This document shows, in pieces, positions 31,258 through 36,402 of a stretch of 64,000 nt of DNA. The position numbers and the translations under genes were made by a program. Every line of letters starts with the position of its first letter. Position 1 is the stretch's first letter. The notes below the pieces were generated by a model that was given only the letters and a program-made list of their open reading frames with translations, was not told the origin of the DNA and searched no databases. Location of the stretch: positions 1 through 64,000 of the forward strand of contig JAHUUI010000007.1 in the NCBI GenBank assembly GCA_019218315.1, read 5' to 3'. The DNA is from Cardiobacteriaceae bacterium TAE3-ERU3 (GTDB lineage Bacteria; Pseudomonadota; Gammaproteobacteria; Cardiobacteriales; Cardiobacteriaceae).

Positions 31258-32853
31258 CTATCTAGCCAAATCACTGAACGTCAAATTGTACTTAGCCAAA
31301 TATTTGCGCAGGCGGTCGCTGTCGTTGGGGTTTTTCAGCTTTTTACGCGACTCGGCAAACAATGCACGCCCCGCCTCGGCTTGGCTACGGTACTGACGAC
31401 AGACGCGCACCACACCGGCCAGCTGGATGCGCTCAAATTCATCCATAGCCGCAACGGCTTCAGCACCGAGTAATTCACCCAGCTGCTCGGCTTCATCGTG
31501 ATTTCTCCTATCCACATCTCCAGCCCACAGACGGCGCAATCGTGCAATTTCAGCGGCGACGTCATCGCGGGTGATGCGTTGCTTGTCAGCAAGCGTGGTC
31601 ATGCGTGTCATTGATGCGGCCAGATCGCGGAAATTGCCGCGCCAAGTTGCTTCCGCACTGGTGGCAAAATCAAGATAATCAGCGCGTGCGTCAGTGTTAA
31701 AGCGGTAATTGCGCTGATCGAGCTGGCTCAGGCGCGCCAGCTCAAAGTCGAGGTTAGCCGGTAAGTCTTCGAGGCGGTCTTTCAGCGCGGGCAAGAAGAA
31801 CGTCCATGTATTCAAGCGCGAGAACAAATCCTCGCGGAAGCTGCCCTCGCGTACTGCGTCGCGCAGGTCTTTATTCGTCCCGGCCATCAGTTGAAAATCC
31901 GCCTTGACCGGCTTGTCGCTACCGACCGGATAAAAATGCTTTTCTTCCAGTACAGTGAGCAGCATCGCCTGCTCATCCAACCCCAGCTCACCAATTTCAT
32001 CGAGGAACAGCAAGCCACCATCGGCTTTTTTGAGCAAACCGTCGCGTGCCTGCACTGCGCCGGTAAATGCACCGCGCACATGACCAAACAGCGTACTGCT
32101 TGCGGTATCGCCGCGTAAAGTTGCGCAGTTAATATCAACCAACTCACCGCTCAGCTGATGGCGGCTTTTCTTGAGCCGGTAAAGCTGGCGCGCCAACTGG
32201 GACTTACCCGCACCAGTCGCACCAATCAGCAGAATTGGTGCAGTGGAGCGCTGCGCGACGGTTTCCAATTCGCGAATCATGCGGTTATACGCCGGATTTT
32301 CGGTCGCAATATTGGCTTTCAGCGTCTGCCAGTTTTCTTCCAAGCGCGCCTGCACACTGGCGGTAAGCTGATCGTAGCGCGATAGATCGAGGTCGATAAT
32401 CTGGTACTCACCGCGGATGTCGCTACGATTACGCGGCACTGGTGAGCTTTGAATCAATTGCGCCGGAAGATAACCGGCATTGACGAGCATAAACCAGCAA
32501 ATCTGCGCCACGTGCGTGCCGGTGGTGAGGTGCAGCAAGTAGCGCGCATCGCGCTCAAAAGTAAAATCCGCACAGAAGTCGTAAAGCAGCTGATAGACGT
32601 CAGCAAAATCCCACGGGTTGGGCATTCGCACGGGGATCGAGACAACCTGCGTATGCGGGCTAACCAGAGCAATATCTTCTGCAACTTGCTTAAACAGCCG
32701 CTGTGCTTCCGGTTGGTGGAGTAAGTACAGCGTATCGATCAATAAATCATCCTGCATACACAGGCCGACATTTGGCCGCCAGCGCAACCAGCGGTTATCA
32801 CTAAAGCCGTTATCAAGCGTTGTGCCAAGAAAGCCAATCACACAGGTTTTCAT
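31258..32853 (-). CDS. rtcR: Sigma-54-dependent transcriptional activator RtcR
   Basis: RtcR activates the RNA-repair genes from a sigma-54 promoter. The 531-residue product has an N-terminal RtcR/CARF-like sensory domain (about 1-180), Walker A GATGAGKS at 211-218, the sigma-54 contact loop GAFTGA at 261-266 and Walker B LLFLDEIG at 281-288, then a C-terminal helix-turn-helix region rich in charged residues. It is divergent from rtcB, with 256 bases between them that hold the target promoter. All activator motifs are intact. Confidence 0.96.
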   Translation of the reverse strand: MKTCVIGFLGTTLDNGFSDNRWLRWRPNVGLCMQDDLLIDTLYLLHQPEAQRLFKQVAEDIALVSPHTQVVSIPVRMPNPWDFADVYQLLYDFCADFTFERDARYLLHLTTGTHVAQICWFMLVNAGYLPAQLIQSSPVPRNRSDIRGEYQIIDLDLSRYDQLTASVQARLEENWQTLKANIATENPAYNRMIRELETVAQRSTAPILLIGATGAGKSQLARQLYRLKKSRHQLSGELVDINCATLRGDTASSTLFGHVRGAFTGAVQARDGLLKKADGGLLFLDEIGELGLDEQAMLLTVLEEKHFYPVGSDKPVKADFQLMAGTNKDLRDAVREGSFREDLFSRLNTWTFFLPALKDRLEDLPANLDFELARLSQLDQRNYRFNTDARADYLDFATSAEATWRGNFRDLAASMTRMTTLADKQRITRDDVAAEIARLRRLWAGDVDRRNHDEAEQLGELLGAEAVAAMDEFERIQLAGVVRVCRQYRSQAEAGRALFAESRKKLKNPNDSDRLRKYLAKYNLTFSDLAR

Positions 32854-32987: not shown

Positions 32988-33003
32988 TGGCACATCCACA
33001 GCA
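32988..33003 (+). promoter_or_regulatory. Sigma-54 promoter of the rtc operon
   Basis: TGGCACATCCACAGCA carries the -24 GG and -12 GC doublets separated by exactly 10 bases, as in the sigma-54 consensus. The TT before the -12 GC is CA here, a tolerated deviation. It lies about 107 bases before rtcB and next to the sigma-54 activator gene rtcR. Confidence 0.7.
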
Positions 33004-33109: not shown

Positions 33110-34342
33110 ATGACACAACCAATCGGACACTCAATCTTACAACCGGACAACGCACACCCAATCCGCTTGTGGACGAATGGTGTGCCGGTCGATGAAAAAG
33201 CCAAAGATCAGCTCACCAAAGCCGCACAAATGCCGTTTATCTACAAATGGCTGGCGGTGATGCCGGATGTACACGTCGGCATTGGTGCGACGATTGGCAG
33301 TGTCATCCCGACCAAAGAGGCGATCATTCCAGCAGCGGTTGGGGTTGATATTGGCTGTGGCATGATGGCGGTGCAAACCAGCCTGCATGCCAATGACTTA
33401 CCCGACAACTTGCACGGTTTGCGCAGCGAACTCGAGCGCGTGATCCCACATGGCCGCACCGGCAGACGCGGCGGCAAGCGCGACAAAGGTGCATGGGAAA
33501 ACCCGACCGAGCGCGTCGATCACGGCTGGGCAAAGCTGGCCGATGATTTCGCGCTGATTTGCGACAAGCATCCGCGCCTGAAAAACACCAACAACCGCAA
33601 GCATCTCGGCACGCTGGGGACGGGTAACCACTTCGTTGAAGTCTGCCTCGATGAGCATCAGCAAGTATGGATCATGCTGCATTCCGGCAGCCGCGGAGTT
33701 GGTAACGCGATCGGCAACTACTTTATCGAGCTGGCGCGGGAAGACATGCGCAAATGGTTCATCAATTTGCCAGACAAAGATTTGGCTTACTTTGCCGAAG
33801 GTACTGAGCATTTTGACGACTACTGGTTTGCGGTCGGCTGGGCACAACGCTTTGCCTACACCAACCGCGAAATCATGATGGAAAGCGCGATTACCGCACT
33901 GCGCAAGGTGATCGATAAGCCGTTTGACGCTGCGGTGAAAGCGGTGAATTGCCACCACAACTACGTGGCGCGCGAAGAACACTACGGCGAGGAAATACTC
34001 GTCACACGTAAAGGTGCGGTGCGTGCAAGAGTTGGTGAATACGGGATTATTCCCGGCTCGATGGGTGCAAAGTCGTTCATCGTGCGCGGCAAAGGCAACG
34101 CCGAATCGTTTTGCTCGTGCTCGCACGGCGCAGGACGGGTGCTGTCGCGCACCGAAGCGAAAAAGCGCTTTGGCATTGACGACCAAATTGCGCAGACCGA
34201 AGGCGTCGAGTGCCGCAAGGATGCTGCGGTGATTGATGAAATCCCCGCAGCATACAAAGACATCGATGCTGTCATGCAGGCGCAGAATGAACTTGTCGAA
34301 ATTGTGCATACGCTAAAGCAAGTCGTATGCGTTAAAGGATGA
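33110..34342 (+). CDS. rtcB: RNA-splicing ligase RtcB
   Basis: RtcB joins RNA 3'-phosphate or 2',3'-cyclic phosphate ends to 5'-OH ends using GTP and Mn2+. The 410-residue product has the metal-binding GVDIGCGM, GTLGTGNHFVEV, LHSGSRGVG and NCHHNYV blocks, the GSMGAKSFIV segment and the histidine of CSHGAGR that forms the guanylate adduct. It matches the roughly 408-residue E. coli-type RtcB. It is the first gene after the sigma-54 promoter; a good ribosome site AAGGAACACAAC precedes the ATG. No archease gene is visible. Confidence 0.96.
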   Translation: MTQPIGHSILQPDNAHPIRLWTNGVPVDEKAKDQLTKAAQMPFIYKWLAVMPDVHVGIGATIGSVIPTKEAIIPAAVGVDIGCGMMAVQTSLHANDLPDNLHGLRSELERVIPHGRTGRRGGKRDKGAWENPTERVDHGWAKLADDFALICDKHPRLKNTNNRKHLGTLGTGNHFVEVCLDEHQQVWIMLHSGSRGVGNAIGNYFIELAREDMRKWFINLPDKDLAYFAEGTEHFDDYWFAVGWAQRFAYTNREIMMESAITALRKVIDKPFDAAVKAVNCHHNYVAREEHYGEEILVTRKGAVRARVGEYGIIPGSMGAKSFIVRGKGNAESFCSCSHGAGRVLSRTEAKKRFGIDDQIAQTEGVECRKDAAVIDEIPAAYKDIDAVMQAQNELVEIVHTLKQVVCVKG

Positions 34343-34419: not shown

Positions 34420-34848
34420 ATGACGATTATTCTCACCGGAAGCGGCAGTATCGTTTACTGCCACTTTGAGCACGAACCACAACCAAGCGACATCGCCCTG
34501 CTGCGCGACTGGATCAATACCCAGCGCGGCACGGTCACCCTATGCGGTGAATACGCCGCCAATGTGTTCGCCGAGCTGTTAACTGACAAGCCCGCCAATT
34601 GCCACCTGAATTACCGCAATAACGACGCGATGCCAACCAATAAAGACTGGCAACTAACCATAAACGGAGTAAACCATGAAACTTGCTGGAGCCCTGATTA
34701 TCCGCGCGGATTTGCAAAAAAAAGCGCGCCGCGCTCAAGCAGCGCCTTACCGCCAACTGCCAAGTGCAGGAAGGCGAACTGCCAGCTGAATCACCACAGG
34801 ATTTGCTGGTTGAAGCGCAGCGCGTCATTGGCGAGCTCGGTACGCTGA
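34420..34848 (+). CDS. Unknown protein encoded between rtcB and rtcA
   Basis: A perfect AGGAGG five bases before the ATG at 34420 supports translation. The first 85 or so residues (MTIILTGSGSIVYCHFEHEP, then LLRDWINTQRGTVTLCGEYAANVF and KDWQLTING) look like a small mixed alpha/beta domain that I do not recognise. From about residue 86 the frame overlaps the 5' end of the DIP1984-family gene and becomes Ser/Pro/Arg-rich, so the true protein may be the N-terminal part with an over-run. It appears to be co-transcribed with rtcB. Confidence 0.5.
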   Translation: MTIILTGSGSIVYCHFEHEPQPSDIALLRDWINTQRGTVTLCGEYAANVFAELLTDKPANCHLNYRNNDAMPTNKDWQLTINGVNHETCWSPDYPRGFAKKSAPRSSSALPPTAKCRKANCQLNHHRICWLKRSASLASSVR

Positions 34849-35135
34849 TCCAGCGTATTCACCGCACCAATGCCGAAGCCAAAGCTGCTGATGGGCGCAG
34901 TATGCTTGATCTGTTGATTGAGCGTGATACGCTGGCTGACCGCCACGCCTTGCTGCAACACGCCATTGCAAGCTGCGACACCAGCAACGGGCGCTATAGC
35001 TACCGCGAAATCCGCTGGCAAACCATGCTCGACATCGCTGCTTTGCAAAAGCAGGCCGATGACATTGCCGTCAAGCTGCGCAACCTGAATATGACAATTC
35101 AAGCTGCGAACTGGCAAGTCGAGCTGATGGAATAG
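34676..35135 (+). pseudogene. DIP1984-family protein, frameshifted at an A8 tract
   Basis: The gene starts at 34676 with GGAG upstream and reads MKLAGALIIRADLQKK. It then meets eight A residues at 34716-34723, after which the family sequence continues in another frame: KRAALKQRLTANCQVQEGE and on to IQAANWQVELME. Removing one A restores one uninterrupted 152-residue DIP1984-type product (N-terminal LRADLQK motif, long helices, C-terminal AIQATNW-like end). It may be a real mutation, a sequencing error in a homopolymer, or a slippage site giving both products. DIP1984 proteins have no known function. It sits between rtcB and rtcA. Confidence 0.75.
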
Positions 35136-35376: not shown

Positions 35377-36402
35377 ATGCACAAGCTAATCCTCGATGGC
35401 CGCCACGGCGAAGGTGGCGGGCAAATCCTACGCACTGCGCTGGCGTTATCGGTCATCACCGGTACGCCGTTCACGCTAAACCACATCCGTGCCGGGCGTG
35501 CCAAGCCGGGCCTGATGCGTCAGCATCTCGCCTGCGTCCGCGCCGCACAAACCATCAGCGATGCAGACGTCATTGGCGGAGAATTGGACAGCCAGACCTT
35601 GCACTTCCATCCGCATGCTCTGCGCGGCGGCGACTACGTATTTGATATTGGCAGCGCGGGCAGCACTACCCTCGTACTACAAACCATATTGCCAGCCCTG
35701 CTTTGCGCTGAGGATGCCAGCAGCGTCAACATCAAAGGCGGCACGCACAACCCGTTTGCACCTACTGCCGATTTTCTAATTGACGCCTTTGCGCCTGCTA
35801 TTGCGGACATGGGGTTGCACGTCGACCTCGATTGCTCGCAGGCGGGATTTTATCCACTCGGTGGCGGTACGTTAACCGCACATATCAAGCCACGCAGTGC
35901 CACGAAAATACCTTTTGATCGCCGTGAACGCGGCAATTTACGCAACGTACGCATCTGCGTTGGGGCACTCAACCTTGAGCGCAAGATTGCCGAGCGCATC
36001 ATTAAAAGCGCAAGCAAGCATCTCAACCATATCGAAGCAACATACGACATTGTGCATTTCAAAGGCATTGGGCAAGGCATCGTCGCCAGCGCTACGGTCG
36101 AGAGTGAGCATCACCGCGAAGCATTTACCGTACTTGGTGACCCCAAAGTTCGTGCTGAAAACGTCGGCAAACGCCTCGCCGGGCAGGTCAAACGCTATTT
36201 GCAGCAAAATGCCTGCGTCGATGAGTACCTAACCGATCAGTTGCTATTGCCTCTTGCACTCACTGGTGGCGGACAATTCAGCTCGCGCTTCATCAGCGAA
36301 CATACCCGCACGCAGATCAACACCATCAGCCAGTTTTTGCCTTGCCACATCAGCCATGATGAAGATGAGCACGGCGCACACACATTAATCGTCAAGCCAT
36401 AA
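35377..36402 (+). CDS. rtcA: RNA 3'-terminal phosphate cyclase RtcA
   Basis: RtcA converts RNA 3'-phosphate ends to 2',3'-cyclic phosphates using ATP. The 341-residue product starts MHKLILDGRHGEGGGQILRT, the family signature, and has VNIKGGTHNPFAP, GFYPLGGG and the C-terminal SEHTRTQINTISQFL with the histidine that carries AMP. I chose the ATG at 35377, preceded by AGGA; the upstream open frame (see 35128-35376) has no family resemblance. A terminator follows. Confidence 0.95.
   Translation: MHKLILDGRHGEGGGQILRTALALSVITGTPFTLNHIRAGRAKPGLMRQHLACVRAAQTISDADVIGGELDSQTLHFHPHALRGGDYVFDIGSAGSTTLVLQTILPALLCAEDASSVNIKGGTHNPFAPTADFLIDAFAPAIADMGLHVDLDCSQAGFYPLGGGTLTAHIKPRSATKIPFDRRERGNLRNVRICVGALNLERKIAERIIKSASKHLNHIEATYDIVHFKGIGQGIVASATVESEHHREAFTVLGDPKVRAENVGKRLAGQVKRYLQQNACVDEYLTDQLLLPLALTGGGQFSSRFISEHTRTQINTISQFLPCHISHDEDEHGAHTLIVKP

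Follow-up and report, generated by a model that had tools for sequence, protein, structure and literature searches.

A frame break at a run of eight A residues in a DIP1984-family gene between rtcB and rtcA

We analysed a stretch of 64,000 nucleotides (the window) at the start of contig JAHUUI010000007.1 of Cardiobacteriaceae bacterium TAE3-ERU3, in which a DIP1984-family (DUF6847) gene sits between rtcB and rtcA. The features of the locus are as follows.

31258-32853, minus strand: rtcR, sigma-54 activator of the operon, intact (NF038308, 740.9 bits, cut-off 650, residues 1-529 of 531)
33110-34342, plus strand: rtcB, RNA ligase, intact (PF01139, 440.6 bits, whole profile)
34420-34848, plus strand: small ORF behind an AGGAGGT ribosome site, open past the DIP1984 start, with no family above cut-off
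34676-34789, plus strand: ATG-frame piece of the DIP1984-family gene, with the family N-terminus, out of frame past the A8 run; TGA at 34787-34789 after 37 codons
34716-34723, plus strand: A8 run, the site of the frame break; Gln-Lys-Lys at the same spot in most relatives
34725-35135, plus strand: rest of the DIP1984 (DUF6847) sequence in the next frame, matching NF038048 and PF20935; family stop TAG at 35133-35135
35377-36402, plus strand: rtcA, RNA 3'-terminal phosphate cyclase, intact (NF003246, 379.7 bits, cut-off 352)

Near end-to-end profile matches were obtained for rtcR, rtcB and rtcA, the genes around the broken one, and the divergent rtcR beside rtcB and rtcA is the arrangement of an RtcR-controlled rtcBA RNA-repair operon. 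Between rtcR and rtcB, a GG-N10-GC site at 32988-33003 is a candidate sigma-54 promoter with three mismatches to the consensus, and such matches number 135 in the window against 150 expected by chance.

The DIP1984-family gene starts at the ATG at 34676-34678, which is preceded by GGAG, and at codon 14 it enters the eight A residues (34716-34723), which are followed by G. The frame next to the ATG frame is open from ahead of the run through 35135. We searched the two pieces of the gene separately against profiles. The results showed that the piece from 34725 matches positions 18-149 of 149 of NF038048 (DIP1984_fam) with 145.8 bits (cut-off 70) and positions 10-141 of 141 of PF20935 (DUF6847) with 152.1 bits (cut-off 27). 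The short ATG-frame piece matched no Pfam family in this search, and its match to NF038048 positions 1-18 is weak (12.6 bits, E 0.12), though 18 residues could hardly score higher; at 10 of its first 15 positions it has the residue that is most frequent among the 52 relatives compared below. Positions 1-18 and 18-149 of NF038048 lie in different frames, and no single frame carries the family over its full length. Codon scores are +0.51 and +0.39 bits per codon for the two pieces and +0.03 for the ATG frame once it has passed the run; since both pieces are coding-like by this score, the frame-broken gene is not a product of chance. Their lengths fit the 151-155 residues of intact relatives. We also considered an internal start for the second piece; the sole ATG, GTG or TTG before the family core is GTG 34764, which by eye has no ribosome site and from which some 30 residues would be lost, and this start was rejected. 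A genome search for a second DIP1984 copy gave a single match at E ≤ 0.001, the gene described here, which is a broken member of the family. The initial annotation had read the locus as a DIP1984-family gene between rtcB and rtcA that begins with a ribosome site and the family N-terminus and changes frame at 34716-34723, and this much of it is borne out by the profile matches, which break exactly at the run, by the GGAG and by the conserved first residues.

We then compared the spot with 82 relatives. A scan covering one genome per species yielded 97, of which we took the best 80, with mostly Psychrobacter and Acinetobacter titles, and two plasmid copies were added; together they represent 81 distinct coding sequences. 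The motifs on which the scan relied lie far from the break, at the other end of the DIP1984 protein, so frame-shifted copies could have been found too. The results showed that all 82 relatives are in frame across the spot. Their longest A-run there is nine in 3 relatives, eight in 14, seven in 40, six in 2, five in 1, four in 20 and three in 2; A7-A9 is thus found in 57 of the 82 and A3-A6, by way of AAG, CAG or other codons, in 25. Mostly the run spells Gln-Lys-Lys as CAA AAA AAG or CAA AAA AAA, elsewhere it is interrupted by AAG or CAG, and three of the 82 relatives have a differing residue in the motif. The presence of the A-run would be explained by the Gln-Lys-Lys that the family usually has there, and the use of AAA there calls for no particular explanation, since the Lys codons farther along the relatives' DIP1984 genes are 499 AAA against 233 AAG. 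With all relatives in frame and 57 of them carrying A7-A9, the frame break is private to the window and the A-run is old, and there is therefore no sign of conserved recoding. A long A-run is thus inherited and does no harm as long as it is in frame, and among the sequences examined the window's alone is off-frame. A comparison with homologues had been proposed in which the same A8 without the family continuation would speak for error or chance; the 14 relatives with A8 are all in frame.

The frame break is known from one assembly, which consists of 11 contigs, and the organism's gene may be intact and the assembly one base too long at the run. A singleton break at a homopolymer in an otherwise undamaged gene, with every relative in frame, is what such an error would look like, and one survey expects BLAST-supported singleton frameshifts to come from sequencing errors and not from true indels (PMC3711429). 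The pattern A8 occurs in the genome 60 times forward and 59 times in reverse (overlapping matches counted), and we scanned a homopolymer sample of 40 stretches of contigs C1-C3 plus the window, which holds part of these places. A first scan by codon score lacked resolution: 64 of 82 runs came out as non-coding, the locus L115 was flagged as a shift, and the DIP1984 case was missed, being labelled a 'strand switch'. An ORF-based scan, with thresholds set after the first scan and the DIP1984 case as its single positive control, covered 77 runs of A8 or T8 and longer. Of these, 41 passed a test for a long ORF with coding-like codon use, and the remaining 36, the DIP1984 case among them, were left unsorted. 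A frame-change pattern appeared in 2 of the 77, the DIP1984 case and L115, and inspection of L115 showed an ordinary junction of two adjoining genes, so that no other frame break was confirmed among the 77 sampled runs. A general homopolymer fault of the assembly is not supported by these results; a single error remains compatible with the scan, which counts against an error only as far as one known positive allows.

To compare constraint, we used 52 of the 82 relatives, those in the Psychrobacter and Acinetobacter lists with a long RtcB match (the Acinetobacter list contains two Alkanindiges). DIP1984 differences per RtcB difference were 2.99 between the window and Psychrobacter, 2.70 between the window and Acinetobacter and 2.13 between Psychrobacter and Acinetobacter, a modest excess for the window, and Glu5, identical in all 52 relatives, is Gly in the window's DIP1984 sequence. 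Of the 73 DIP1984 columns that are invariant in the Acinetobacter list, 24 are broken in the window and 14-20 in the Psychrobacter sequences, and at the 67 fixed in Psychrobacter the window breaks 15 and the Acinetobacter-list sequences 12-16, where a violated 'column 1' is an alignment slip rather than a change and may add one to other column counts. In RtcB, the window breaks 17 of 302 columns fixed in Psychrobacter (Acinetobacter-list mean 36.8) and 29 of 285 fixed in the Acinetobacter list (Psychrobacter mean 29.8). The higher divergence and the Glu-to-Gly change would fit some loss of constraint, and 15 of 67 at the Psychrobacter-fixed columns against 12-16 does not suggest relaxation, so that the signs of constraint appear mixed overall. 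There is no other damage in the rest of the gene, and decay is therefore at most slight. The Gly in place of an invariant Glu and the excess divergence both speak against an assembly error, which we regard as possible but rather unlikely, and we favour a real mutation over it, short of proof.

The explanation that we put slightly above an even chance is an ordinary, recent one-base frameshift at the A-run that leaves an accessory DIP1984 gene off. Such A-runs are prone to slipped-strand errors in replication, and hypermutable poly(A) tracts at the 5' end that turn a gene off have precedents, among them inlA of Listeria monocytogenes (PMC2831843). We infer that the extra base is truly in the organism's DNA and that one slipped-strand event added it, turning the DIP1984 gene off recently and costing the gene its function. 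As assembled, the gene would yield no more than a peptide of 37 residues, about 16 of them family sequence. The genes rtcR, rtcB and rtcA are undamaged and, as far as their sequences tell, should still work.

The run might also act as a reversible switch, its length flipping in the population so that some cells have DIP1984 switched on and the rest do not, and the assembly would then have caught the off state at the conserved Gln-Lys-Lys. Some cells would in that case make the DIP1984 partner of the RNA-repair operon and others just RtcB and RtcA. The inlA tract is the closest comparison (PMC2831843): like the DIP1984 gene, with its run at codon 14, inlA has a short A-run near the 5' end in which a change of length turns the gene off. 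It differs in being documented in several strains with measured frequencies, whereas the DIP1984 case is one assembly. The A7-A9 runs in 57 of the relatives agree with a switch, but A8 is short, none of the 82 relatives is in the off state, and the run is accounted for by the codons of a conserved motif that has A3-A6 in 25 of them. We consider phase variation improbable.

Slippage of RNA polymerase on the A8 run, giving some full-length protein from the shifted gene besides the short product, was the part of the initial annotation that gained no support: the break is found in 0 of 82 relatives, and a frame change that is programmed would be expected to recur among them. Eight A is described as the lower limit of detectable slippage by E. 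coli RNA polymerase, which is inactive on runs of fewer than eight A (PMC6260861), and it is noted that shorter runs may slip in some bacteria (PMC1088944). To restore the frame here, one A would have to be lost or two gained, and on the poly(A) runs examined in PMC6260861 the E. coli polymerase made no deletions and hardly any insertions. A genome-wide study likewise describes deletions within homopolymers as rare in E. coli (PMC5574713), and in a sizeable proportion of genomes selection against slippage is described as evident once runs reach nine (PMC1088944). The known case of tssM1 in Citrobacter rodentium resembles the DIP1984 gene in having an A-run past which the domain continues in another frame, and its slippage is given as about 20-25% (PMC4256274). 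That case differs in that tssM1 has A11 and slips by insertion, whereas the DIP1984 gene has A8, needs the loss of one A and has a break that is not conserved. We regard transcriptional slippage as very improbable.

The small ORF at 34420-34848 has a very good ribosome site, is an orphan and extends about 170 bases beyond the DIP1984 start. It reads GCA AAA AAA AGC through the A8 run and is stop-free up to it, and a -1 ribosomal slip on A_AAA_AAA in this frame would enter the DIP1984 frame and yield a fusion of the small ORF with the DIP1984 domain. The slippery heptamer thus exists on paper for the small ORF; for the frame of ATG 34676 a +1 shift would be needed. Such a fusion would skip the family N-terminus, which is kept in the ATG 34676 frame. 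The codon score of the small ORF falls from +0.09 per codon (as far as 34674) to -0.10 over 34675-34845, a non-coding-like value. We found no stimulator of programmed -1 frameshifting behind the run: the predicted folding is -24.9 kcal/mol (z -0.42), with 63 of 200 shuffles folding at least as well, and no Shine-Dalgarno-like site was seen by eye within the range described in PMC4066793. Among 57 genomes the small ORF matched two, the window's own and one weakly (E 0.004), and it matched no plasmid, so that no good relative shows it to be conserved. Ribosomal frameshifting from the small ORF is barely credible to us.

The proposed recent one-base frameshift has a possible setting in the origin of the operon. 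In a tree of 30 RtcB proteins (midpoint root), the window's RtcB is sister to ten Psychrobacter RtcB with support 98/94, the two together group with Acinetobacter and Alkanindiges (100/98), and the five RtcB proteins from the window's own order fall elsewhere. In G001, a genome of the same genus, neither rtcB nor DIP1984 has a match. From the Psychrobacter affinity of RtcB, a single gene, we judge that the operon probably arrived by horizontal transfer from a Moraxellaceae-like donor. An accessory gene could be dispensable in a new host and could be lost by such a frameshift.

The Acinetobacter baumannii plasmid p2VB280821 has the same layout, with a divergent rtcR and then, arranged as in the window, rtcB, one further gene, DIP1984 and rtcA. 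It differs from the window in that its DIP1984 gene is in frame (A7), a gene annotated as ribonuclease Z (L023:783-1757) stands before rtcB, and the gene before DIP1984 is a hypothetical one of 216 residues. A tblastn search of this locus with the window's small ORF found nothing.

We also examined where the DIP1984 family is found and next to which genes. With the piece past the A8 run as query, 355 plasmid records matched, 343 of them Acinetobacter and all less than 60% identical, as did three phage-collection records labelled Acinetobacter phage. In the DNA fetched for the 82 relatives, 53 loci have DIP1984 flanked by rtcB on the upstream and rtcA on the downstream side, all on one strand, with 98-2462 bases between aligned ends on the rtcB side and 290-2825 on the rtcA side. 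There is therefore often room for further genes between them, and the spacing from rtcB to DIP1984 is variable across the Moraxellaceae loci. Among the other 29, 18 have neither rtcB nor rtcA despite enough DNA, 3 have one gene with enough DNA for the other (2 rtcA only, 1 rtcB only), and 8 end at a contig edge on one side. These results indicate that in Moraxellaceae the family commonly, though not exclusively, resides between rtcB and rtcA. In the window's own order, where 20 relatives picked from 56 were searched for rtcB, six carried both a DIP1984 match and an rtcB match, the latter strong in five and weak in G009, and in each of them the two genes lie far apart or on separate contigs. 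A class-wide draw of 369 genomes gave a DIP1984 match in three: the window's own genome, G254, which has no rtc neighbour within 10 kb of its DIP1984 gene, and G328, whose match (L025) is not a family member by translation and was dropped.

The models NF038048 and PF20935 state no function for the family, and the solved structure of a relative, 3kdq (E 1.4e-30), is named only 'uncharacterized conserved protein'. Among the papers searched we found none that joins the DIP1984 family to RtcB, none that names DUF6847 and none with septicolysin alongside RtcB, and 'septicolysin', an older label in some plasmid records, gains no support from the rtc context. RtcR-controlled rtcBA operons are described as responding to broken tRNAs (PMC7790460), and because of this we guess at a role of the DIP1984 protein near RtcB or RtcA. 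The frame break warns that the gene model is broken and why, and has little significance by itself. More useful is the connection of DIP1984 with RNA repair, since a family that commonly neighbours RtcB and RtcA in the fetched Moraxellaceae loci can be tested directly for an RNA-repair role. In a Xanthomonas plasmid operon (L150:2018-3508), in which no gene is annotated between rtcB and rtcA, a VWA-domain gene stands before rtcB.
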